DNA from: a candidate division TA06 bacterium ADurb.Bin131
Lineage (GTDB): Bacteria > Ratteibacteria > UBA8468 > B48-G9 > DTJG01
Length of the DNA stretch: 36,119 bases
Assembly (NCBI GenBank): GCA_002070645.1
Contig: MWDQ01000152.1
Span: 1-36,119, forward strand
Direction: 5' to 3'
Shown here: positions 8,300 through 19,046 of the stretch, in pieces
Layout of the letters: each line of letters begins with the position of its first letter
Numbering within the stretch: position 1 is the stretch's first letter
Program-made: the position numbers and the translations under genes
The notes under the pieces: model-generated
Databases searched by the model: none
What the model saw: only the letters and a program-made list of their open reading frames with translations
What the model was told of the DNA's origin: nothing

Positions 8300-8759
8300 A
8301 ATACCTCCAATTTATTGATAAATACTTCAAAAAATTTGCCGTCTGTTTCAAATCATTCGTCTTCCTGAAATTTTCATCTCCACATTACCTTGATTACCCT
8401 GTTTGCTTCTGATAAAACAGATCAGGGATTGGAGAATCCAGAAAAACACAGGAAATCACCAAACTTCAGATTTTTGAGTGTTTATTATAACATATTATCG
8501 ATATTCAATAAAAATTTGATGAGTACACGGATGTCCTATCTTAAATATGCCTACATCTTCCAAGAATCACCTGCGTGAAAGAGATATCTTCCTTTGCGTC
8601 GGATCTCTAAGACAAATTTTTCATCTGTTTTTTGACGATATCTAAATCATAAGGGCTTATCTCAAATGTCTATTGTAGAAGAAATCCAAAATAGATTGGG
8701 AAAATAGTTGAACAGGATAAAACCCAAGTTTTCCGGTATGTACTGTTGATGAATCTAAT
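8300..8759. other. 460-base region without a recognised gene between rpmH and the accessory locus
   Basis: This is where dnaA or an origin often lies relative to rpmH. No match to the DnaA box TTATCCACA was found on either strand. What is visible: the rpmH leader and its possible -10 box; a CTGTTT/AAACAG stem at about 8400-8420; an AGAGAT/ATCTCT pair around 8580-8612. Short plus-strand reading frames here (for example 8390-8578) show no family signature. A stretch at 8667-8760 can be read as protein-like only with a frameshift and is too short to call. Confidence 0.5.
8484..8489 (-). promoter_or_regulatory. putative -10 box of the rpmH operon
   Basis: The minus strand reads TATAAT here, about 185 bases upstream of rpmH, in an AT-rich patch. 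No good -35 element is seen at 17 bases, so this is a candidate only. Confidence 0.3.
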
Positions 8760-9869
8760 CTATGTTCTATAATTAGTAATTAATTCATTCCTGTTTGTGT
8801 AACCGAGACAAAGATTTTTTACGGGACACTGAAAACATCTTGGTTCATCGTGATTGAAACAATAATTTGTTCCTATGTACATTAGACCATCATCTAAGTC
8901 ACCAATTCCATAATTTGTGTTGAGTAATAGTATATTTGGGATTTGTTGAATCTCGACTTTTGATGGTCTTCGTTTCTTTACCTTTAAATATTCAACACAA
9001 ATCAGTTCGTAAGAATCAATAAAATCTTTTAAGTCCGAAAACCTGTCAGATTTTCGGCCTCTTATGTTTGTTACCCGAATATAATGCTTTCCGCTCTTTC
9101 CCTTACCTTCCTGAATAACATCCCAATTTTTATAGTCGGATAAATCAGCCCAATTAAGTAAAAATCCTGTTCTGAACAGAACACGTCCTGCATTGCTATC
9201 AAATGGTAATTCATAAGAAAGAGGTCCGAATGAACTATCATTCTTTTTTACCAGTTCAAAGGTGTGTATATACCATTTAGCAAAAAGATGTCCTGCTTTA
9301 TCTCCAATGGCCTTACCTAGACCATACCTTTTATTATCCTTTATCTGTTGACTCATAATCTCTGCTGAATCCCAATCTTCAATATAGGCAACAAGAGGTT
9401 CAGATGATTCTCTTCCATTTTTTTGTAGATCCTTTTCCAATAAAAAAGGAACACACAGGACAACTCCCCAACGATAAATAGCATAACCTAACACCTGGTT
9501 GGTTCTATCAGTGAATAGATTATATTTGCCTGGGTTTGATTTGTTTTCTCTTGCCCAGGTATCTGCCCTAATTTTCTTCACACCATCATGTTTCTCTAAA
9601 ATTTCATCAATAGATATACCTAATTCCTTAAAAAAATCTAATGGTTTATGAAATATTCGAATTTCTTTGCTGTATAAAGCGTTTATAACATCTTTAAAAA
9701 GTAATCTAACCCCCTCAAGATCTGGACCCTGGTCAAGCACTGCACTAACGAGTAAATAACGAGTAATTATTTCCCTTCTTGTCCATAAACCATCATTGTT
9801 ATCAAGTTCATTTCTCTTAATCTCTCCTTTGTTATCAAAATAATGTTCAAATGGAAATAAATCTTGCAA
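8760..9869 (-). CDS. HhH-GPD-like protein with C-terminal Fe-S cysteine loop
   Basis: At least 369 aa. Visible: an N-terminal helical segment (LLVSAVLDQGPDLEGVR, ~39-55) like the start of the endonuclease III fold; a helix-hairpin-helix-like LGKAIGDKAGHLF (~184-196); LPFDSNAGRVLFRTG (~221-235), where Asp224 sits like the catalytic Asp of HhH-GPD glycosylases; and C337-x7-C345-x2-C348-x5-C354, very near the C-x6-C-x2-C-x5-C cluster of endonuclease III. It may excise, recognise or modify a DNA base; no activity is proven. It follows the methyltransferase gene and probably shares its transcript. The first standard start is the TTG at 9869, but the frame stays open and protein-like upstream (see the site at 9954-9968), so the true protein may be ~29 residues longer. 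Confidence 0.7.
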   Translation of the reverse strand: MQDLFPFEHYFDNKGEIKRNELDNNDGLWTRREIITRYLLVSAVLDQGPDLEGVRLLFKDVINALYSKEIRIFHKPLDFFKELGISIDEILEKHDGVKKIRADTWARENKSNPGKYNLFTDRTNQVLGYAIYRWGVVLCVPFLLEKDLQKNGRESSEPLVAYIEDWDSAEIMSQQIKDNKRYGLGKAIGDKAGHLFAKWYIHTFELVKKNDSSFGPLSYELPFDSNAGRVLFRTGFLLNWADLSDYKNWDVIQEGKGKSGKHYIRVTNIRGRKSDRFSDLKDFIDSYELICVEYLKVKKRRPSKVEIQQIPNILLLNTNYGIGDLDDGLMYIGTNYCFNHDEPRCFQCPVKNLCLGYTNRNELITNYRT

Positions 9870-9934
9870 CGGAGGTAGAGAAGTATTTTTTCTCCCTATT
9901 TTTGAGATCTCAAGTAATAAGTCTTTGTTTCTTT

Positions 9935-10783
9935 TTATATTTTCTTCTGTGTTCGTTTTGTTTCCTCCGTATCGAATAGCGTCAATAATGTTTGGTTTTT
10001 AGAGTATTCGTTTATCTCTTTAATTCTATATATATTTTCATCTAACCTTTTTTGGGCAAATTCATAATATTCTTTTACAATTTCAAACCCAATATACTGC
10101 CTTTTCGTCATTTTACTAACAATTGCCACTTGTCCTGAACCCAAGAACGGGTCTAAAACAATATCTCCTTCTTCACTCGAATACATCAGTATCTTTTTAA
10201 TCAATTCTGCTGGTAATTTTGTAGGAGTTTTTTGGTCACCTGTCCAATATTCTCTTTTTATTATCCAGACATCCTCTTTATCTTTATAATGTAAACTGCC
10301 ACCATCTTTATCATCTTCTTCTTTCCCATATCTTGAATAAGGAAAAAATTTCCTCTTTTCATCATTTTTACAGATATAAAGGCAATGGTAGTGTGATGTG
10401 ACAAATTTCCTTTTTGTTACTACTCCAAATTGATACTTCCAAATAATATGATTTACTGTGGTAAAACCTAATTCATCAATTGCTATTAAAATATCTTTTA
10501 GATTATTCCAGCCAGAAAAAACATACATACTTCCAGAATCTTTGAGAACCCTATGTACCTCTTTCATCCATTTGAGTGTAAAATTATAATATTCCTCTTG
10601 GGGAATTTCATTATACCCTTCTATAACCCTTGACGCCGTCCTATGATAATTATTTCTTTTTGCCTTAAAATCTATAGCGAAGGGTGGGTCTGTAATAACG
10701 AGGTCTATTGTATTATGTGGGATATACTTCATTCCCTCGATACAATCTATATTATATATTTTATTGAATTCTATATTCTCCAT
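9935..10783 (-). CDS. DNA methyltransferase, beta class (N6-adenine or N4-cytosine)
   Basis: A 282-aa enzyme that would transfer a methyl group from SAM to an exocyclic amino group in DNA. The catalytic motif DPPF is at 32-35 and the SAM-binding motif DPFLGSG is at 211-217. This order, with the target-recognition region between them, defines the beta class. TPTKLPAELIKKIL before the SAM motif is also typical. No restriction endonuclease gene of a known type is adjacent; the partner is the HhH/Fe-S protein, whose frame overlaps its end. The start ATG has a GGAAGTG ribosome-binding site upstream. Base specificity (A or C) and target sequence cannot be read from the sequence. Confidence 0.9.
   Translation of the reverse strand: MENIEFNKIYNIDCIEGMKYIPHNTIDLVITDPPFAIDFKAKRNNYHRTASRVIEGYNEIPQEEYYNFTLKWMKEVHRVLKDSGSMYVFSGWNNLKDILIAIDELGFTTVNHIIWKYQFGVVTKRKFVTSHYHCLYICKNDEKRKFFPYSRYGKEEDDKDGGSLHYKDKEDVWIIKREYWTGDQKTPTKLPAELIKKILMYSSEEGDIVLDPFLGSGQVAIVSKMTKRQYIGFEIVKEYYEFAQKRLDENIYRIKEINEYSKNQTLLTLFDTEETKRTQKKI
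9954..9968 (-). promoter_or_regulatory. ribosome-binding site with possible non-standard ACG start
   Basis: On the minus strand GGAGG (9968-9964) is followed after seven bases by ACG (9956-9954), in frame with the HhH/Fe-S gene and inside the end of the methyltransferase gene. From here the frame reads TNTEENIKRNKDLLLEIS and onward with no ATG, GTG or TTG until 9869, where no ribosome-binding site is seen. Either ACG is a rare start, or an original ATG has mutated. Confidence 0.4.
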
Positions 10784-10804
10784 TTTTTCACTTCCGTATC
10801 ATAA

Positions 10805-10905
10805 GCGATGGCGTATAACGTTCTCGGTGTATGCGAAGTCCCGAACGAAGTGAGGGATTTGGGTGAGGGCTTTAGCCCGAACCGCGTACACCGTGTTATG
10901 CGATG
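10805..10905. repeat. GC-rich imperfect palindrome, integron attC-like
   Basis: The arms GCGTATAACG...CGGTGTATGCG (10811-10835) and CGCGTACACCGTGTTATGCG (10883-10902) pair over most of their length. AAC and GTT lie at the outer ends, as in the core sites of attC. Between them are two small hairpins: TCCC/GGGA (10839-10857) and GGGC-TTTA-GCCC (10867-10878). GCGATG occurs at both edges (10805-10810 and 10900-10905), each followed by a GCGTA-like word, so the element also looks flanked by an 11-of-12 direct repeat. It is far richer in GC than its surroundings and separates two gene pairs. An attC site, a mobile palindromic repeat or a terminator-like structure are all possible; no integron integrase is present. 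Confidence 0.55.
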
Positions 10906-10913
10906 TGCGTAGG

Positions 10914-11366
10914 TCATAGCGGGACTCCTCTTTTAATTGAATCATTAAGTTTACCCATCATGTATCCTATTCCTTTGCAATCACTTAATGGGCTAAGAAT
11001 TTCCTTTGATGAAAAAACTTCATTTGCCATTTCTACATAGTTTTTCCCACCTAAAATAACGATTCGGTCATAGTTGTCTAATCCCTTTTCCTTCACTTGG
11101 GCAAAAAGTTCCTTTGTAGTTATTGGGTTTGTCTTTGGGTCATTAAAACTTACATTGTAAGGGCCAGTAACTAACTCATCTGGGAATAGAAATCCATATT
11201 TTGCAGACAGGATACACCACGAGGATGGATAAAACCTCATGGCATATTCTCTACACTTTTTAGCAAATGGCCCAATATACACATATTCTGCTTTAGTGGA
11301 ACCAGCTTTCGGATTCTTATCCCATATCTTCCTATTGCCGCATGGAACCATACAAAGTGTTTTCAT
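10914..11366 (-). CDS. DUF6884-like protein
   Basis: A 150-aa cytoplasmic protein with the pattern remembered for DUF6884: an N-terminal beta strand ending MVPCGNRK, then YIGPFAKKCREYA, the motif ILSAKYGFLFPDE, a GPYNVSFND segment, ILGGKNYVEMA, and a C-terminal PLSDCKGIGYMMGKLN. Its biochemical role is not established to my knowledge; the CG-K and LSAKYG motifs resemble domains seen in nucleobase-related enzymes, which is a weak analogy. The ATG overlaps the stop of the upstream HhH-like gene (ATGA), so the two are translationally coupled. The attC-like palindrome lies directly downstream. Confidence 0.65.
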   Translation of the reverse strand: MKTLCMVPCGNRKIWDKNPKAGSTKAEYVYIGPFAKKCREYAMRFYPSSWCILSAKYGFLFPDELVTGPYNVSFNDPKTNPITTKELFAQVKEKGLDNYDRIVILGGKNYVEMANEVFSSKEILSPLSDCKGIGYMMGKLNDSIKRGVPL

Positions 11367-12271
11367 GTTTCCAACTCCACAACACTATTCTCTATTTTAA
11401 CCTTCCCTTTAGTACAAAATTCCCTCGCTTCACATCTATTAAAGAGTGAACAATATCCTGTTGTCTTATCTCGGTTTGTACAACCATACTTAGATAGGTG
11501 CCAAAGAGGCTCGTCCACGTCTAACGCCATCATTTCTCTATTCTTAATGCTAAGTCCTTTTACACTTTCAAACCAAGCTTCTCGTATATATTCAAACACT
11601 TTATCTAATCTACCTCTGAACTGCCCCCTAACAATTCCAGTAGCTAATGTAGCCCTTGCTATATGTATATCTACGGGAATAGGCACATTCTCTAAATTTT
11701 CTAATTGAGTGATACCTACGTTGTCTCGAAGCATTCTCAACCACAATGGACCTATTTTGGAACCACGAAGATATGGATAATCAGATACCTGTTTTCCACT
11801 ATAAATGTGCTTGTCCTCCCTTAGGCGGCTCAAAATGCTGGGTGAATTCCAATTGCAATCTTGAAGGAAGTTGCGTGGATCGCCTCCCCATTTTTTATAA
11901 AAAGTAACGCCAACCGTTCGCCAAATATTAGCATCTTTTTGAGGTTTCTTTGATAATTTATATTTTTGCATATCCTCACCAATTTTTGTGAAAGGAGTTT
12001 CATGTAATAATTTTGGGTCGAATAAATATCTCGTTTCTAGATCATCAAAAGTTTTTCTCGAGCTCTCCCATAATGATGGAGCATCCCTTTGATAATCAAT
12101 GGAAACCGTGAGTGTTATAAAGAATATATGCTCGAGAGAGCCTCTTATTACGCTATGGGGCGTTATGTCCTCTGGCATATCAGTTCTTCCGTGAATACCA
12201 TTAGTGGTGAAAGAATTATAGAGGAGTTCCGCAAGCTTCTTTCCTCTTTCATTGTCTATTACAATTGACAT
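11363..12271 (-). CDS. HhH/Fe-S glycosylase-like protein (second, distinct)
   Basis: A 302-aa protein not closely similar to the one at 8760. Visible: PYLRGSKIGPLWLRML (~166-181), a helix-hairpin-helix-like stretch with a lysine where bifunctional glycosylases have one; IPVDIHIARATLATG (~198-212), where Asp201 matches the VD-x-H catalytic motif of HhH-GPD enzymes; and C264-x9-C274-x5-C280-x5-C286, a probable 4Fe-4S loop with the last spacing as in endonuclease III. The N-terminal ~110 residues have no recognised motif. It heads the accessory operon and overlaps the DUF6884-like gene. A DNA base-recognising or -removing role is inferred from fold-level motifs only. Confidence 0.65.
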   Translation of the reverse strand: MSIVIDNERGKKLAELLYNSFTTNGIHGRTDMPEDITPHSVIRGSLEHIFFITLTVSIDYQRDAPSLWESSRKTFDDLETRYLFDPKLLHETPFTKIGEDMQKYKLSKKPQKDANIWRTVGVTFYKKWGGDPRNFLQDCNWNSPSILSRLREDKHIYSGKQVSDYPYLRGSKIGPLWLRMLRDNVGITQLENLENVPIPVDIHIARATLATGIVRGQFRGRLDKVFEYIREAWFESVKGLSIKNREMMALDVDEPLWHLSKYGCTNRDKTTGYCSLFNRCEAREFCTKGKVKIENSVVELET

Positions 12272-12328
12272 ATTTCACACACTCCTACGCATGTTACCTA
12301 ACAAGTTTTAACCGCACCCATTTTAAAC

Positions 12329-12357
12329 TTGCTTAAAAATCGACCTTTTTGTATAAT
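12329..12357 (+). promoter_or_regulatory. putative promoter of the broken recombinase
   Basis: TTGCTT (12329-12334), 17 bases, then TATAAT (12352-12357), 23 bases before the ATG at 12381. The -35 half is weak, the -10 is perfect. A stem CAAGTTT/AAACTTG (12302-12331) overlaps its upstream edge. Confidence 0.5.
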
Positions 12358-12380
12358 AATTGTGTAATCATAAATACACT

Positions 12381-13237
12381 ATGAACACACAATTTCGAAC
12401 AACCAGAATTGAGCGCGACCCAATGTATAACCTTGAACGCGAACTTAAGATTCGCGGTTTTTGCCGCAAAACAATCAAAGCCTATGTGTATTATAACATA
12501 AAATTCTTAAATTTTGCGAGAAAAAGTCCAAAAGAAATTGCCAATGAAGAAGTTAAAAGATATTTAGAGTATTTGGCTAACAAACAAGTTTCTAACGCTA
12601 CTTTGAATTTGGCCATCAATGCTTTGAAATTTTACTATACTTAAGTTCTTAAAAGAAAATTCTTTTTTGACATTAAACATCCCAAGAAAGAAAAACGCCT
12701 ACCGGTTGTTTTAACCAAAGATGAAATTAGGAGAATGCTTGAAGCGACAGCAAATCTAAAGCATAAATTACTAATGGAAATTATGTATGGTTCGGGATTA
12801 AGAGTTTCAGAAGTTATTAAATTAAAAATAAAGGATATTGATTTAGCAGAAGGAATTATCAGGGTCAATTTAGGCAAGGGTAAAAAGGATCGCCAAACTA
12901 TTCTTTCAAAAAGAGCCATTGAAGATTTGAAAACTTTTTTAGAAACAAGAGAAGATGACATCAACATTTATTTACCGGAGCTCAAAACAAAGGTCATTTA
13001 TCTACAAGATCAGCCCAGAAAATTGTTTTGCAAGCGGCAAAATTGGTTGGCATTAAAAAAGATATTTCTTGCCATAGATTAAGGCATAGTTTTGCCATCC
13101 ATTTGTTAGAGAAAAGAGTTGATATTAGATACCTTCAAAAATTATTAAGCCACAAAAGATTAGAAACAACCCAAATTTACACCCAAGTTTCCACTCAAAA
13201 ATTAAAGGAAATCGGTAGCCCTTTAGATGATTTATAA
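12381..13237 (+). pseudogene. Xer-like tyrosine recombinase, inactivated
   Basis: Three consecutive pieces in different frames make one ~285-aa tyrosine recombinase. Piece 1 (12381-12644) is the SAM-like N-terminal core-binding domain and ends at a TAA (12642-12644), where the frame continues with VLKRKFFFDIKHPKKEKRLP; CAA to TAA is the likely change. Piece 2 (to about 12980) carries the first catalytic block, MYGSGLRVSEVIKL with the catalytic Arg. A one-base loss near 12975-12985 moves the rest to another frame, which reads QNKGHLSTRSAQKIV and then CHRLRHSFAIHLL, LLSHKRLETTQIYTQVS (His, Arg, His and the Tyr nucleophile). The protein is like short Xer-type recombinases common in candidate-phyla genomes. 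Function is lost unless both lesions are bypassed. It is convergent with the restriction operon. Confidence 0.88.
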
Positions 13238-13302
13238 GAAAACGACTAAAAGATTTTTGAAAAAATTTGTTGGCGGGCGAGCCGATGATTTTTACTATAA
13301 TA

Positions 13303-13593
13303 TCAAATCAGCCCAATTTTCAAAAGAGTTTTCCTTGAAATCCTTGCTTGCTTTGGCAAAATAAATATCGGGCCGTGATAAGTTTTCCAACCGGAATTGT
13401 CATTTGGGTATGCCGCCATAAAATCAAAAGCCATTTGCTCGGCAATATCCTCAATGGTCGGTTTATAATTTGTGTCTTTCGCTAAAATGTTTTTTATTTC
13501 TTTGGCAATATCATGCTCGCCATTATAAGACGCGAGAGCTTTTTGCTCCTCGTCTAACTTTTTAAGATAATTTTTAACTTCGCTGTGTATCAT
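13303..13593 (-). CDS. unknown 96-aa protein at the end of the restriction operon, possibly truncated
   Basis: Starts 8 bases after hsdS. Residues ~1-80 look like real protein (helical, charged, with MAFDFMAAYPNDNSGWKTYHGP). The last ~17 residues, KQARISRKTLLKIGLI, look less natural. Around 13355-13365 another frame continues with FAKASKDFKENSFENWADL and stops at 13295. So the gene may carry a frameshift, or it may be the N-terminal stump of a longer protein; the SGW-x-TY-x-GP motif reminds me of the start of DUF7380/DUF4209-type proteins, a weak match. No function is assigned. Confidence 0.5.
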   Translation of the reverse strand: MIHSEVKNYLKKLDEEQKALASYNGEHDIAKEIKNILAKDTNYKPTIEDIAEQMAFDFMAAYPNDNSGWKTYHGPIFILPKQARISRKTLLKIGLI

Positions 13594-13601
13594 ATTATTT
13601 T

Positions 13602-15059
13602 TTACGCTAAAATCATTTGTTCTACTTCTTTTTGCGCCGAAATAACTATGCTTTCCGCCTCTTGTCGCAAGCGTTTCGCTTTTTCATAAATTGTTTTTAC
13701 GCCAGCAATAATTTTTTCCTGTTTGGCAACGCTCGGCAAAGGCACAATCAATTTTTTAACAATATCAGCATTTAATGCGGGTTGCGCTCCGCCCGCTGTC
13801 CATCGTAAAGATAAATCTTTTCCGATTTTTGTATTTAGAAAAACAGCGACATAATCAGGTATAATTTTTGTTTTATTAATTTCATTCTGTAAATGAAATC
13901 TAACAGAATTTTGACTTATATTTCCTTCAAAATTTTCGGGAACTACAGAAACCGTTCCGGGTCGCCCGATAATCGTAAAAACTAAATCGTCTTTTTTCAA
14001 CTGCGAACGCTTGAGCATTTTTTCGTGGACTTCTGGCTTGATAAATTTAACATCGTCAAGATTGATTCCCATTTCCGTAATATTCTGTACTCGCAAAAAT
14101 GGCACGCCGCCCTCTTCTAAATAATAATCGCCCGTAACTTTTGGCGTTGCTCCGCCAGACATCTCCGTTATCGCTTCGCCAAGCGTAAAATGCTTTTGTT
14201 TTTTGATCTGTTCCAATAAACTGCGTAGGAATGGTTTGTAAAATAAAGCGTCAATACGACCCTCAATTTCATCACTCCAGACCTGAAATACCCGCTCTGC
14301 CTTCCCCCGCGGCATATCTATACCAAGCTCGCCCAAAACAAAATCGTCAATGGACGACAAAATTTTCATGGCCTTCTCTTCCATTTTTTTTGCATTTTTT
14401 CTTGCGTCAAAAGCAAATTTCGCGATTTTTTTTTGTTCATTTTTCGGTAATTCTACAATCTTGATTTTGAAAAAGTCATCAAGGCGTAAATTTTTTATGC
14501 CTGTCGTTTGGTTTTGTAAAAATTCAGTATAACCAAGATGATAAATCGTTTGTAAAAAGGTAAAAACATATTCCGGAAAAAATGAATCACCCGCAATTCT
14601 TATTTTCTGTAAAAAGTTGCTAAATATGACGGGTTTATTAAACGGCAAGTCATCAACAAATGCAACTCGCCCGACAGGTTGTATAGGACTGCCACCTGAT
14701 TTTTCAATCAAAATATCACCTTTTTGCAAAGCAAGTTTTTCAATTTTGCTATTTTTAACATATCTTTGGGCAACATCGTCAAAATTAAGATTGTATTTAT
14801 TATCAAAGTTTGTATTTCTCAAAACATAACAAAGTTGATAATCGGGACTTGGTTCAAAAGTGTCAGGGTCTTCGCCCCAATCTCCGGCAAAAGAAAACTG
14901 CACAATATCGCTCAATAAATGCGCTTTTCGTTTTGTGCCATTAACAACAGCAACAAGTTTTTTGAAAATAGGGCGATAAAAAAACGGGTCAAGACGAGAT
15001 TCTATCTCATTGCTCCAGATAGTAAATATTTCTGCTGATTGTTGTGGATTTTTGCTCAT
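13602..15059 (-). CDS. hsdS: type I-like restriction specificity subunit
   Basis: A 485-aa protein with two target-recognition domains. Each half begins with a related block: FTIWSNEIESRLDPFFYRP (~12-30) and FQVWSDEIEGRIDALFYKP (~258-276). Each TRD ends in a long helix (~205-240 and ~455-485) of the kind that sets the spacing between the two half-sites. The second TRD includes EMSGGATPKV and LPLPSVAKQEKI, classic methylase_S signatures. It would guide the partner methyltransferase to a split DNA target. The ATG overlaps the stop of the upstream gene (ATGA), so synthesis is coupled. Confidence 0.92.
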   Translation of the reverse strand: MSKNPQQSAEIFTIWSNEIESRLDPFFYRPIFKKLVAVVNGTKRKAHLLSDIVQFSFAGDWGEDPDTFEPSPDYQLCYVLRNTNFDNKYNLNFDDVAQRYVKNSKIEKLALQKGDILIEKSGGSPIQPVGRVAFVDDLPFNKPVIFSNFLQKIRIAGDSFFPEYVFTFLQTIYHLGYTEFLQNQTTGIKNLRLDDFFKIKIVELPKNEQKKIAKFAFDARKNAKKMEEKAMKILSSIDDFVLGELGIDMPRGKAERVFQVWSDEIEGRIDALFYKPFLRSLLEQIKKQKHFTLGEAITEMSGGATPKVTGDYYLEEGGVPFLRVQNITEMGINLDDVKFIKPEVHEKMLKRSQLKKDDLVFTIIGRPGTVSVVPENFEGNISQNSVRFHLQNEINKTKIIPDYVAVFLNTKIGKDLSLRWTAGGAQPALNADIVKKLIVPLPSVAKQEKIIAGVKTIYEKAKRLRQEAESIVISAQKEVEQMILA

Positions 15060-16837
15060 AGGTTTTTTCTAAATTCCTTGTATTTTTTCAAAATAAGCGG
15101 ATCTAAATCATTTTGTTTATCTTTCTTGCCTGCTGCGTCATAGCCGATATGCTCGGCAATCGCCATAAAAATTTTGTATCGCCCCAGTTTTTCTTTTTCA
15201 CCTTTCTTGCGGACGAATACGAGCGATGATTTTACGCCCGCGCCAAAATGGGTAAAGGTAAATTGCGGCAAACTAACAATCGCATTGATTTGGCATCGCT
15301 CCATTAGAAAATCGCGGACATATTGCAAAGTGGAGTTAGACAAAATGCCGTCGGGTAAAACGATTGCCATTTGCCCAGTTCTGGGCTTTAAGAAATCAAT
15401 GCAACGCTCGATGAATAAAATCTCGGTTTTTTGATTATCGCGGGATTTTTTGCCGTTTTGTCCAAGCGCAAATTTTTCAAGATAAGGGTGTTCGCTTCGC
15501 TTCACATTCGCGCCAAATGGCGGATTGGTAACGATTATGTCAAACCTGTTTTTGGCAAAGCCGCGATTTTTCTCGGTCATTTTGCCGACATCTTCCAAAG
15601 CGTCAAAGCAGATAACATTCGTATGCCCGTCATCGTGGATTATCATATTCATTTTGGCGACGCGGGCGATTGAATCGTTTATCTCAATACCGAAAAGATT
15701 ATTTTGTGCGAAGTCGTGCCAAAAACGATATTTTTCCGCTTCCTCGTTTTCATTAAATTCTTCCGCCTGCTTTCTCACTTCATCAAGGGCGTGCAAAAGA
15801 AATCCGCCCGAACCGCAAGCGGGGTCAAGCACGAGATCGTCATTTTTTATGTCCATCATTTTGACGGCGAAGCTCACAATTTCGCGGGGAGTAAAGTATT
15901 GTCCGCTCTTGCCCTTGAAAAAGTCTTCCATAAACTGCTCAAACGCCACGCCTTTGGTATCAAGGTCAGTTTTATTGAGCGATATGCTCTGTAAGTGTCC
16001 GACGACGGTATAAAGTTCCTCGGGGTCAATTTTCAAACTTTCCTTAAACACCTCGGGGTCTTTTTCTTTCGCTTCAAGATAAATTTCGTTTATGCGCCGA
16101 TAAACGCTTTCGGCTTTTTCGTGCGTTTTGATTTGGAAGTCGTAATAATCACCAGTTTTTCGTCCGCGCTTTTCATCGCGGATTTTTACGAAAATGATTT
16201 TGCAAAGTTCGTCAAAAGCGACAGTTGGATTTCTTTTGCCGCCAGCCCAAAGCGTGTTATGTGATTTTTCAAGGGCGCGTTTCAATTCTGATTTATCAAG
16301 CACTTTCAAATCCCAGTCGGGATCGCCTTTCTTGTAGCGAAATTCCTCAATTTTTCCGTAGGAGATAGGAATATCGGTAATGGTCGCCTTTTCCGGCTCT
16401 TTGTCGTTCCATTCGGCGGTTTCCATTGCGCGGCGAGTATTGCCCGCAACGCAAATTGCAAGCGGGGCGTGAAGCACGCGAGCGTTGGCGATTGCCTGTT
16501 TGGTGGCTTGCTCAAATTCTGCATCGGAAATGCCGTCTTTTTTGCACTCAACAACGATATAAGGTTTTTTCTTTGCGTCATCTTCAAAAATAACAATGTC
16601 CGCGTAGCGTTTGGGTGTTCGGTCCGGCATTTCCGTTTCAAGTTCAATTCGTTCGACGGGATAGTGATATTTTTCAAGCAAATCAAAATAGTATTCAGCG
16701 CGGACTTTTTCTTCGGGGTCGTTTAGATTTTCTTTGTGTCCAGACGGCAGATATTCAATTTTTGCTCCGTCATTCAAAACGCGAAAATATCCTTTTCGCT
16801 CGCCGTCTTTCAAGATTTTATCAAAAGTATTCTCCAT
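15056..16837 (-). CDS. hsdM: N-6 DNA methyltransferase with N-terminal PD-(D/E)xK nuclease domain
   Basis: A 593-aa fusion. Residues ~40-170 resemble the HsdR N-terminal nuclease domain: Asp80 in RYADIVIF and E97-C-K99 in IVVECKK form a PD-(D/E)xK site. Residues ~200-590 are an HsdM-type methylase with SAM motif DPACGSGG (338-345) and catalytic NPPF (438-441). This joins cutting and methylation in one subunit that works with HsdS, as in BcgI-like type IIB/IIG enzymes. No ATP-dependent HsdR helicase gene lies in the window. Composition looks richer in GC and CpG than the flanking host genes, suggesting transfer. Whether it cuts, or the nuclease domain has a regulatory role, is not shown by sequence. 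Confidence 0.88.
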   Translation of the reverse strand: MENTFDKILKDGERKGYFRVLNDGAKIEYLPSGHKENLNDPEEKVRAEYYFDLLEKYHYPVERIELETEMPDRTPKRYADIVIFEDDAKKKPYIVVECKKDGISDAEFEQATKQAIANARVLHAPLAICVAGNTRRAMETAEWNDKEPEKATITDIPISYGKIEEFRYKKGDPDWDLKVLDKSELKRALEKSHNTLWAGGKRNPTVAFDELCKIIFVKIRDEKRGRKTGDYYDFQIKTHEKAESVYRRINEIYLEAKEKDPEVFKESLKIDPEELYTVVGHLQSISLNKTDLDTKGVAFEQFMEDFFKGKSGQYFTPREIVSFAVKMMDIKNDDLVLDPACGSGGFLLHALDEVRKQAEEFNENEEAEKYRFWHDFAQNNLFGIEINDSIARVAKMNMIIHDDGHTNVICFDALEDVGKMTEKNRGFAKNRFDIIVTNPPFGANVKRSEHPYLEKFALGQNGKKSRDNQKTEILFIERCIDFLKPRTGQMAIVLPDGILSNSTLQYVRDFLMERCQINAIVSLPQFTFTHFGAGVKSSLVFVRKKGEKEKLGRYKIFMAIAEHIGYDAAGKKDKQNDLDPLILKKYKEFRKNL

Positions 16838-16839
16838 AG

Positions 16840-18606
16840 TTATATTTTGTTAAACGCCTTTTTTATAATTCCAGTCATCAGCTTTCTTCTTTCTTGCAAA
16901 AAGTCGTCATATTCAAGCTGATAAAAATTTTCTGGAATAGCGTGTTGTGCTAACATTTCTTTAATTTCACTCTCGCCGAACCTTTTTTGCACCATTGCAA
17001 AATATTCGCTTGGTTTATCGTCGCTGATTTCAATATTATCTTCAAATTCCAAAAATGTCAGGTTGGCAATCTGGTTTATTTTTGCCTTGTCCTTGTTCTT
17101 ATCAAATCCGTATTTTGAAATAAGATAATTTTTCGGAAAGATATGATGTTTTTCTAAGCGCTTCTTTTTAATTTTCAGCGACGGATCATAAAGATCGCCG
17201 ACAAGTTTGCGAGAAAATAAAACTGGCGAGCCGAGCTTGTTCAGAGCGGCGTAAAATGCGTTGGCTTCTGGACTTCTTGCCGATGAGGTTTCCATTTGTC
17301 CAACAAGCGTAATGTCCCAAAAATCATTGGTTAAATTCTCGCTGATTATCTTTTCAAGCCCACTGATAAATCCGTCTGGATTAAATTCTTTGATTCTATT
17401 CAAATCTTTTTCAAAAGAGGTTTCTGGCGAAGAAGAATATCTACCCGTAAGAGAAGACATCACAAACCAACGCCCGATAATCCTTTGCAATTCATGATTT
17501 TGAGTGTTGAAGTTTTGTTTTCCAATAAGATAAAGAATGTAGCTATACAAAACGGCACTTTTTGACGATATGAGTTCTTCGTCTTTATATCCTCCACCGA
17601 TCAGAATTTTCAAAAAACTTTGCCAATTCGTATTGTCAAGAATAGTCGGCAAATTTAATTTTAGTTTGTCGAATTGTTGTGTTCGTAATTCTTCTGAAAA
17701 TTCTCCTGTTTCCATGTCGCGTCCACGAATAATGGAATATACATCTTTCATTTTCGCTCGGTGGAATGTTAAGCCAACTAAAACACGAAGCATATCGTCT
17801 GGGTCAGGCTTTATCAGGTAATTGAAAGATGAAAATCGAGTTTCTTTTTCCGGTATTTTTCTTGAGTCGATACAAAATTGCTCAATTTCCTTTCTTCCTT
17901 TTTCCCAATAGACAGAAAGCAAAGTCAAGATAAAGTCGGCTTGCGTCAAACTTACGCCTTGGCTGTTTATGCGGACAAAAATGTCCGAGACAATTTCTTC
18001 TTCCAAATTTGGAGCAATTTCAAGAGCTGTTAGGGGATATTTGTCGATATTTATAAGTGATTGAATATTTGCAGAAATTGTTTTTTCTTCCTCCTTTGAT
18101 ATTTCTCTTTTTTCTTTCAAGTTAGCAATAAAGGAGCTAATGATTGCAAAATCACCTTCACCAGACCAAAGAGAAGATATATCGGCAATATATTCGGGGT
18201 CGCGATCTGTGACGGCGTCGCCGACTTTAAAAATAGAATCCAACGGCTTAAATGCAATTTTTATATTCTTCTTTTCATAAGCAGGGGTTAAAACTTCTTT
18301 ATTTTTCATCACTGCAAAAAGAGCCGTCAATCTTTGTTGTCCGTCTATGATTAAAAATCTAGGAATTTTTCTTTTCTTTTCTTCAAAGCCGATATTTTTA
18401 TAATCGCTACGATTGGCATTTTCCCAAAAAACCAAATATCCGATTGGATAACCGCGATAAATTGAATCAAACAAATCGCGGACTTTAGAAATTTTCTTAT
18501 ACCAAACGAAAGGGCGTTGAATATTGGGTAAGGCAATATCGCCGATTTCAATATCGTCCACTAGTTTTGCAATCGTATAGTCTGTTGTTTTAAATACTTG
18601 TGCCAT
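16840..18606 (-). CDS. DUF262 domain protein with C-terminal HNH (DUF1524-like) nuclease
   Basis: A 588-aa protein of the GmrSD/SspE-like group. The DUF262 part shows LPNIQRPFVW (26-35) and IIDGQQRLTAL (86-96), a ParB-like nucleotide-binding and hydrolysing motif. VRINSQGVSLTQADF (~211-225) is a further family hallmark. The C-terminal part has KHHIFPKNYL (~486-495) and NQIANLTFLE (~511-520), an HNH nuclease core. Relatives cut modified phage DNA (type IV restriction) or are accessory parts of other defence systems. It lies 4 bases after the XRE regulator and 2 bases before the methylase fusion, in one operon, which is unusual for a stand-alone type IV enzyme. Confidence 0.88.
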   Translation of the reverse strand: MAQVFKTTDYTIAKLVDDIEIGDIALPNIQRPFVWYKKISKVRDLFDSIYRGYPIGYLVFWENANRSDYKNIGFEEKKRKIPRFLIIDGQQRLTALFAVMKNKEVLTPAYEKKNIKIAFKPLDSIFKVGDAVTDRDPEYIADISSLWSGEGDFAIISSFIANLKEKREISKEEEKTISANIQSLINIDKYPLTALEIAPNLEEEIVSDIFVRINSQGVSLTQADFILTLLSVYWEKGRKEIEQFCIDSRKIPEKETRFSSFNYLIKPDPDDMLRVLVGLTFHRAKMKDVYSIIRGRDMETGEFSEELRTQQFDKLKLNLPTILDNTNWQSFLKILIGGGYKDEELISSKSAVLYSYILYLIGKQNFNTQNHELQRIIGRWFVMSSLTGRYSSSPETSFEKDLNRIKEFNPDGFISGLEKIISENLTNDFWDITLVGQMETSSARSPEANAFYAALNKLGSPVLFSRKLVGDLYDPSLKIKKKRLEKHHIFPKNYLISKYGFDKNKDKAKINQIANLTFLEFEDNIEISDDKPSEYFAMVQKRFGESEIKEMLAQHAIPENFYQLEYDDFLQERRKLMTGIIKKAFNKI

Positions 18607-18610
18607 GTTT

Positions 18611-18820
18611 TTATTTCATTAAATCATCTATGCCAACGTCCAAAGCGTCCGCAATTTTTTTAACTGTTCCAATAGTTGGGTTTGGTGTCGCGCCTGCTTC
18701 TATTTTGGCAATAGTATGAAAAGCCAAATTCGCTTTTTTTGATAAGACATCTTGAGAAATACCGAGCTTGTTTCGGTATTTCTTTATATTCTTGCCGATT
18801 GTGGATTTTTCGTTTAACAT
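18611..18820 (-). CDS. XRE-family helix-turn-helix regulator
   Basis: A 69-aa protein that is essentially a single HTH_3 domain (~10-65): IGKNIKKYRNKLGISQDVLS, then AKIEAGATPNPTIGTVKKIA. It is the first gene of the restriction operon, and such controllers usually delay restriction until methylation is complete. Repeated ATAGTTAGT words and an ATAGT/ACTAT palindrome directly upstream are candidate binding sites. No clear ribosome-binding site precedes the ATG. Confidence 0.9.
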   Translation of the reverse strand: MLNEKSTIGKNIKKYRNKLGISQDVLSKKANLAFHTIAKIEAGATPNPTIGTVKKIADALDVGIDDLMK

Positions 18821-18826
18821 GTTCGT

Positions 18827-18900
18827 ATAGTTTTACTATGATAGTTAGTGAGGATATAAAACCTTTATCATCAATAGTTAGTATATGAAATTTTTATCAT
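18827..18900. promoter_or_regulatory. repeated operator-like sites upstream of the XRE gene
   Basis: ATAGT-TTT-ACTAT is a palindrome at 18827-18839. ATAGTTAGT occurs at 18841-18849 and 18874-18882, and TTTATCAT at 18864-18871 and 18893-18900, so two ~30-base units are arranged in tandem. This fits an autoregulated control region. No convincing -35/-10 pair could be assigned. Confidence 0.4.
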
Positions 18901-18963
18901 TTAGTCAAACGAAATTAGGGAGTCCCTTGTCGTTGCCCGCGCATGGGAGGACTGGGTCAATCA

Positions 18964-18984
18964 GCAAAATCCTCTGGATTTTGC
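18964..18984. repeat. perfect hairpin, 9-bp stem
   Basis: GCAAAATCC-TCT-GGATTTTGC. It lies in the non-coding stretch between the XRE gene and the tRNA and has no T-tract, so it is not a clear intrinsic terminator. Confidence 0.5.
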
Positions 18985-19024
18985 TTAAAGAAAGTTCTGA
19001 TATTGTCCAGCAGACACCACTTCC

Positions 19025-19041
19025 TTCCGCCTTCGGCGGAA
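19025..19041 (-). terminator. GC-rich hairpin just 3' of the tRNA gene
   Basis: TTCCGCC-TTC-GGCGGAA, a perfect 7-bp stem. Read on the minus strand it starts six bases after the tRNA 3' end and carries a GAA loop. It could stop transcription or mark processing, but no T-run follows, so the call is tentative; it may instead be a dispersed repeat. Confidence 0.35.
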
Positions 19042-19046
19042 TGGAG

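Follow-up and report, generated by a model that had tools for sequence, protein, structure and literature searches.

The 36,119-nt stretch of candidate division TA06 bacterium ADurb.Bin131 analyzed here (the window, by which we mean its whole length) comes from an assembly of the metagenome-assembled genome (MAG) type, and the locus under study occupies positions 8760-12271 of its minus strand. Four minus-strand genes are found there, placed as in the initial annotation (Table 1): two helix-hairpin-helix (HhH) proteins, named HhH1 and HhH2, a DNA amino-methyltransferase (N6_N4_Mtase in Pfam, E 7e-45) and a DUF6884 protein. HhH1 and the DUF6884 gene share the annotated ATGA overlap. The annotated end-to-start overlap of the methyltransferase and HhH2 depends on the start codon of the latter: its listed open reading frame starts at TTG 9869, and the frame is open up to 9998. 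An ACG at 9956, behind a GGAGG, lines up with the Met of the nearest homologue, and with this start HhH2 therefore overlaps the methyltransferase end by 22 nt. Either the ACG or the TTG is used, or the start codon has been lost. Our analysis suggests that the four genes probably represent two modules within one island, i.e. the methyltransferase with HhH2 and HhH1 with the DUF6884 gene, and the first of these, a candidate restriction-modification system, is our main subject.

Table 1. Features of the locus and of its surroundings, with loci of a related methyltransferase pair (window coordinates unless a locus is named)
Feature	Position	Strand	Description
HhH2	8760..9956	-	398-aa iron-sulfur (Fe-S) helix-hairpin-helix glycosylase-like protein; proposed restriction glycosylase; start ACG 9956 or TTG 9869
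HhH2 four-cysteine cluster loop	8808..8861	-	C366-x7-C374-x2-C377-x5-C383; Cys in 29-30/32 rows
HhH2 Asp253 codon (PFDSN)	9198..9200	-	candidate counterpart of endonuclease III Asp138; 32/32 rows; weak alignment to MutY LDGN
HhH2 Lys220 codon (IGDKA)	9297..9299	-	candidate counterpart of endonuclease III Lys120 (Schiff-base lysine); 32/32 rows
DNA amino-methyltransferase	9935..10783	-	N6-methyladenine (m6A) type; TDPPF motif; CcrM is the closest solved structure
GC-rich imperfect palindrome between the two modules	10795..10910	-	attC-like arms GCATAACACGGTGTACGCG / CGCATACACCGAGAACGTTATACGC
DUF6884 gene	10914..11366	-	YaaA-like cantaloupe-fold family; PADLOC PDC-M57A
HhH1	11363..12271	-	AGOG/Qng1-like glycosylase, C-terminal Cys motif
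HhH1 Asp201 codon (PVDIH)	11669..11671	-	candidate catalytic Asp; 11/11 rows; aligned with AGOG PVD and endonuclease III VDTH
HhH1 Lys172 codon	11756..11758	-	invariant in 11 sequences
Tyrosine recombinase, disrupted	12360..13237	+	no integron-integrase insert seen; Xer-like
Horizontally acquired island, ~10.7 kb	8320..19045		between rpmH and tRNA-Ala(CGC), in place of relatives' surE
Methyltransferase with FDG...PWDFK partner, paired or fused	L187:1465-3003, L185:1501-2969, L182:1501-2991, L183:820-2310

The genes encoding HhH2 and a methyltransferase travel together across a wide range of organisms. Among the 386 genomes searched, HhH2 relatives are encoded in G014, G018, G025 and, in another phylum, G187, in each case following a methyltransferase gene. 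Scanning of genome contigs yielded 38 HhH2 loci, which cover Acidobacteriota, Bacteroidota, Fibrobacterota, Chloroflexota, Planctomycetota, Nitrospirota, Pseudomonadota and Bacillota, together with DPANN, Thermoplasmatota, Nitrososphaerota and haloarchaea among the archaea, and further groups. A DNA amino-methyltransferase adjoins HhH2 in 37 of the 38, and the sole exception, L061, is a fragment from the end of a contig. The methyltransferase lies upstream on the same strand in 33 of these 37 loci, mostly overlapping or abutting HhH2, and is downstream in one, divergent in two and convergent in one. Clustering of all neighbours gave no other family that recurs beside HhH2, except for housekeeping genes and the synteny of close relatives.

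HhH2 is confidently modelled as a distant member of the endonuclease III/MutY-type HhH-GPD fold. Its AlphaFold2 model has a pLDDT of 94.2 and a pTM of 0.92 (32 sequences), and its best PDB folds by Foldseek are endonuclease III-3 and endonuclease III, with TM scores of 0.52-0.58 on target length, and then MutY. The Foldseek probability is 0.99 to 4uob, and the E-values are modest (0.09 and above, none below 0.001), which is consistent with a distant relative having large insertions. No family scored above the cut-off for HhH2 in PADLOC, Pfam or NCBIfam, and no close relative was found in the phage and viral collections searched. Sequence searches alone are marginal for both HhH proteins, and their assignment is firm via profiles and models. 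Three motifs of HhH2, LDQGPD, IGDKA and PFDSNxGR, are similar to SAQATD, GRKTA and VDTHxxR of endonuclease III. The cluster loop gives weak EndIII_4Fe-2S (PF10576) matches below the cut-off in two homologues and a weak match to the Fe-S region of MutY. K220, D253, Q76 and D79 are invariant in the 32-row alignment, for K220 and D253 partly by construction as explained below, and K220 and D253 are both kept in the relatives found by profile search and in L060, which matched the Lys pattern only.

The methyltransferase partners of HhH2 are interchangeable. They fall into five groups, A-E, where groups A and C carry DPPF/Y and are of the m6A type, with CcrM as the nearest structure for A, and groups B, D and E carry SPPY and are of the N4-methylcytosine (m4C) type, with B near TTHA0409 and PvuII. 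The HhH2 tree intermixes archaea with many bacterial phyla, and at least 7 changes of methyltransferase group can be counted on it, with 3 changes between the DPP and SPP types, as where L044, which has SPPY, is the sister of L046 and L053, which have DPPF. The exchange also goes the other way, as close group A relatives in the class of the window have a different partner of ~220 aa with an FDG...PWDFK motif (G008, G009, G028 and G033), which is fused to the methyltransferase in G032. This partner has no family match, and its motif points to a possible PD-(D/E)xK nuclease, and possibly to an unnamed restriction enzyme family. It stands where HhH2 would, and HhH2 therefore holds the place of a restriction enzyme.

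The two genes of the pair also decay unequally. A single TGA codon breaks HhH2 in each of L031 and L041. The gene is interrupted by a TnpB/IS607-like insertion in L058, affected by a deletion in L059 and frameshifted in L062, and it is possibly frameshifted C-terminally in L043 and L049, while the methyltransferase is open in all seven loci. The reverse, an intact HhH2 without its methyltransferase, was found in none of the HhH2 loci, against five clear cases of HhH2 disruption. The same is seen in PabI systems, whose recognition site is avoided in the hosts and whose restriction gene is often inactivated with the methylase kept (PMC10273834). HhH2 could instead be a catalytically inactive DNA-binding or regulatory partner of an orphan methyltransferase, serving as its controller or specificity subunit, as its large insertions relative to endonuclease III (398 versus 211 aa) and its strongly conserved basic loop VIQ-GKGK-YIRVTNIRG might suggest. 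However all of its candidate catalytic and cluster residues are conserved, it decays alone, and the depletion of AGCT described next suggests an attack on DNA; we regard an inactive HhH2 as very improbable.

We compared palindromes between the HhH2 contigs and controls without presupposing a site. AGCT is outstanding among the palindromes, with a pooled observed/expected ratio of 0.44 in the HhH2 contigs versus 0.82 in the controls (z -11). When 20-kb controls are used, it alone among the 136 tetramers is an outlier. Its median ratio is 0.35 in 34 HhH2 loci versus 0.86 in 23 controls, none of them below 0.73 (p 2.8e-8). The depletion is present with methyltransferase groups A-D and over a GC range of 29-69%. 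G187 is the only HhH2-positive genome among 46 Nitrospinaceae, and has an AGCT ratio of 0.42 compared with 0.70-1.17 in 14 relatives, which sets it apart within its genus.

A repair enzyme linked to methylation might also travel with a methyltransferase, if HhH2 mended mismatches or lesions to which the modified base gives rise. There is a precedent in Mig.MthI, a T/G mismatch glycosylase that is associated with a 5-methylcytosine (m5C) methylase plus a separate endonuclease, and whose role is the repair of deaminated m5C. Mig.MthI is, as proposed for HhH2, an HhH Fe-S glycosylase tied to a restriction-modification locus, and the endonuclease III/MutY-type fold of HhH2 would suit such a role. 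But the HhH2 pair comes without an endonuclease and without an m5C methylase, and the deamination product mended by Mig does not arise here, since the partners are of the m6A and m4C types. The exchange between these two types, the decay resembling that of restriction genes and the depletion of one palindrome would be unexpected for a repair enzyme as well, and we consider this explanation unlikely.

We believe it likely that the methyltransferase and HhH2 form a restriction-modification system that acts by base excision and derives from the endonuclease III fold. The methyltransferase would modify a short sequence of the host's own DNA, for which AGCT is the most likely candidate, with A methylated by the m6A-type partners and C by the m4C-type partners, and this methylation would protect the host. 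HhH2 would scan the DNA, flip a base out of an unmethylated site and excise it via Asp253, and may nick the resulting abasic site through Lys220 by beta-elimination. Attack on both strands of the palindrome would lead to a double-strand break or to unreplicable lesions in the invading DNA. The pairing of the genes, the fold, the conserved residues, the exchange of partners, the unequal decay and the AGCT depletion are observed, and the excision, the lyase action, the site, protection through methylation and the role in defence are inferred. We also lean, with less assurance, towards a broader proposal that such pairs represent an undescribed class of restriction-modification systems that is widespread. 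Here an Fe-S glycosylase/lyase with the endonuclease III fold, not related to PabI, would remove a base from AGCT that is unmethylated, and would work with interchangeable m6A or m4C partners in bacteria and archaea. The glycosylase-based restriction proposed in the initial annotation is well supported for this pair, but HhH1 and the DUF6884 gene are a separable module. Its other option, a hypermodification system, is rejected: no base-synthesis or transferase genes are encoded nearby, there is no significant structural match to DNA-hypermodification families, and the best viral fold match, an amino acid:DNA transferase, has a probability of only 0.28.

A number of observations weigh against the restriction system or limit it. 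The sequence similarity between HhH2 and endonuclease III is very weak, hence the assignment of Lys220 to Lys120 rests on the motif and its helix position; comparisons of the HhH2 profile with small endonuclease III and AGOG alignments are too weak to fix the alignment of the Lys. The conservation of K220 and D253 in part reflects the search itself, as the scan patterns, AIGDKA[GC]H or YE[LIV]PFDSN, contain one or the other of them, and one pattern sufficed per locus. Most loci are from MAGs, and assembly errors may account for some of the HhH2 disruptions. In the window's own HhH2, ACG stands in place of the ATG of its relatives, and the expression of this copy may be poor. As for AGCT, it is not depleted in the HhH2 loci L038, L052 and L060, nor in G008 and G009, where the methyltransferase is paired with the other partner, and it is strongly avoided in several HhH2-negative genomes of the window's class (G001, G006, G010, G017, G022 and G023). 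AGCT is only a candidate site for this reason. GGCC and GATC are low too in G187, presumably due to other systems. In the genome of the window itself, the AGCT depletion cannot be attributed to the island since the island was acquired recently, as shown below.

To our knowledge, nearly all restriction enzymes hydrolyse phosphodiester bonds, and the PabI family (HALFPIPE; e.g. R.PabI, R.CcoLI and R.HpyAXII) is the only known exception. The logic proposed for HhH2 is similar, with a glycosylase and an amino-methyltransferase as a two-gene mobile unit. HhH2 is nevertheless not a PabI family member, because its HhH-GPD Fe-S fold is unrelated to the HALFPIPE fold, and it has no PabI-type Pfam match. 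The PabI site is GTAC and not AGCT, the candidate for HhH2, the PabI family is found in Helicobacteraceae, Campylobacteraceae and a few archaea whereas HhH2 is found in many phyla of both domains, and the switching between m6A and m4C methylases is a further difference. Endonuclease III and MutY share with HhH2 the fold, the candidate Lys and Asp, a Gln-x-x-Asp hairpin motif and the four-Cys C-terminal loop, but HhH2 has ~190 extra residues, negligible overall sequence similarity to them and an obligate methyltransferase neighbour, with no context of damaged bases or mismatches. The anti-phage glycosylases Brig1, Brig2 and Brig3 also act in defence by base excision, as proposed for HhH2, but belong to the uracil-DNA-glycosylase superfamily, target modified phage bases and have no self-protecting methylase (PMC13160076).

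The second module has its own affinities. The DUF6884 protein matches PF21818 in Pfam (E 1e-13; 51.8 bits versus a gathering score of 30), has the motifs CxxxK and LSAxxG in the form of CGNRK and LSAKYG, and is YaaA-related. HhH1 scores 14.6 bits with AGOG (PF09171), below the gathering score of 26.1, while its profile reaches AGOG 1xqo at 2e-9 and also endonuclease III. Structure prediction agrees with the HhH-like character initially annotated for both proteins: the model of HhH1 (pLDDT 93) has its best match in Qng1/DUF2419, a queuosine nucleotide glycosylase (probability 1.0), and its next ones in MutY and endonuclease III. HhH1 is like AGOG and Qng1/DUF2419 in the fold, the profile match, the Asp of PVD and a Lys-to-Asp spacing of ~30, but differs from them by its C-terminal Cys motif and has no detectable full-length homology to them. 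The other annotated features, a catalytic-type Asp and four cysteines, are present in both HhH2 and HhH1, except that the four C-terminal Cys of HhH1 have a spacing unlike that of endonuclease III and missing in the haloarchaeal relatives of HhH1.

A module of the HhH1 and DUF6884 type lies beside HhH2 in two of ~39 HhH2 loci, the window and G018. The order in G018, joined across two contigs through a 246/247-nt end overlap, is methyltransferase-HhH2-AGOG-YaaA, and the last two are strongly diverged versions (canonical AGOG and YaaA). Pairs of AGOG-like and YaaA/DUF6884 genes are seen directly after HhH2 in G018, as overlapping genes in G044 and in convergent orientation on a Halomicrobium plasmid. 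An HhH neighbour was found in only 3 of 30 sampled DUF6884 loci. HhH1 relatives are mostly solitary, those elsewhere being without a methyltransferase, and in the viral and phage collections HhH1 homologues were found only in haloarchaeal viruses, without DUF6884. The four genes might still work as one system, as the initial annotation had it. In that case abasic sites left by HhH2 would be processed or repaired by HhH1 and the DUF6884 protein, e.g. for protecting the host or completing the cleavage of the invader. This would agree with the gene order in G018 and with the recovery of the DUF6884 member YfjM among interactors of abasic-site DNA (PMC11701544). However the recurrence of neighbours holds for the methyltransferase-HhH2 pair and not for the second module, and HhH1, AGOG and DUF6884 are mostly found elsewhere without HhH2; the neighbourhoods of the HhH2 and DUF6884 loci do not support a four-gene system, and we doubt that there is one.

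HhH1 and the DUF6884 protein are probably a module apart from HhH2 in the same island, involved in base excision or in the processing of apurinic/apyrimidinic sites. We tentatively speculate that it could act on 7-deazaguanine or oxidised guanine in DNA, as a defence against phages with modified DNA or in oxidative repair. The matches of HhH1 to Qng1/DUF2419 by fold and to AGOG by profile point this way, as do the overlapping AGOG and DUF6884 genes of G044 and dpdC of the 7-deazaguanine DNA modification island, which is a DUF6884 protein (PMC11888242). Against this, no preQ0 or dpd genes are found within the window, and HhH proteins are rare beside DUF6884 as given above.

Some related loci were also observed. 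Contig C66 of the same genome has a second methyltransferase locus (L096:5338-9853), encoding a 522-aa N6_N4_Mtase protein, a 144-aa gene product, a 402-aa protein weakly similar to the HhH1 type (profile E 3e-12) and a 383-aa protein with HSDR_N_2 and RAMA. DUF6884 genes adjoin proteins resembling or annotated as GIY-YIG nucleases in L113, L114, L116 and L003, which are possibly the second part of PDC-M57 of PADLOC. Longer AGOG-type proteins with an N-terminal extension are encoded at L072:124-1296 and L068:1387-2616, with DUF7664 in L072, and an HhH1 relative lies directly beside endonuclease V at L095:5196-6784.

In five same-genus genomes, rpmH, surE and tRNA-Ala(CGC) are consecutive, and surE, which was not found in the window's own genome, has in these five the place that the island takes here; the island was therefore acquired recently. 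Besides the four genes it encodes the broken tyrosine recombinase, HsdS, HsdM with an HSDR_N-type domain and a GmrSD protein. The initial annotation had noted that no standard restriction endonuclease is present, and there is indeed no nuclease among the four genes, but the island has GmrSD and HsdM with an HSDR_N domain further upstream. The HsdM-like methyltransferase (15056-16837) has an N-terminal HSDR_N_2 domain and is MADS2-related; HsdS is present, and no HsdR is found among the neighbouring genes.

For the palindrome between the two modules, no similar element was found in the class, in plasmids or in viral contigs, and its single-strand fold is no better than that of shuffled sequences. 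An integron cassette array was considered for the region but seems unlikely, since there is only this one attC-like palindrome, without relatives in these collections or a distinctive fold, and the recombinase is broken and Xer-like with no IntI-type one seen.

If this reading of the methyltransferase and HhH2 as base-excision restriction-modification is correct, HhH2 would be a second restriction glycosylase, unrelated in fold to the first and derived from a universal repair fold. Base-excision immunity would then have evolved more than once and would be widespread, linking DNA repair to immunity, and a sequence-specific base-excision reagent would be in prospect. The predicted AGCT site makes this claim directly testable.

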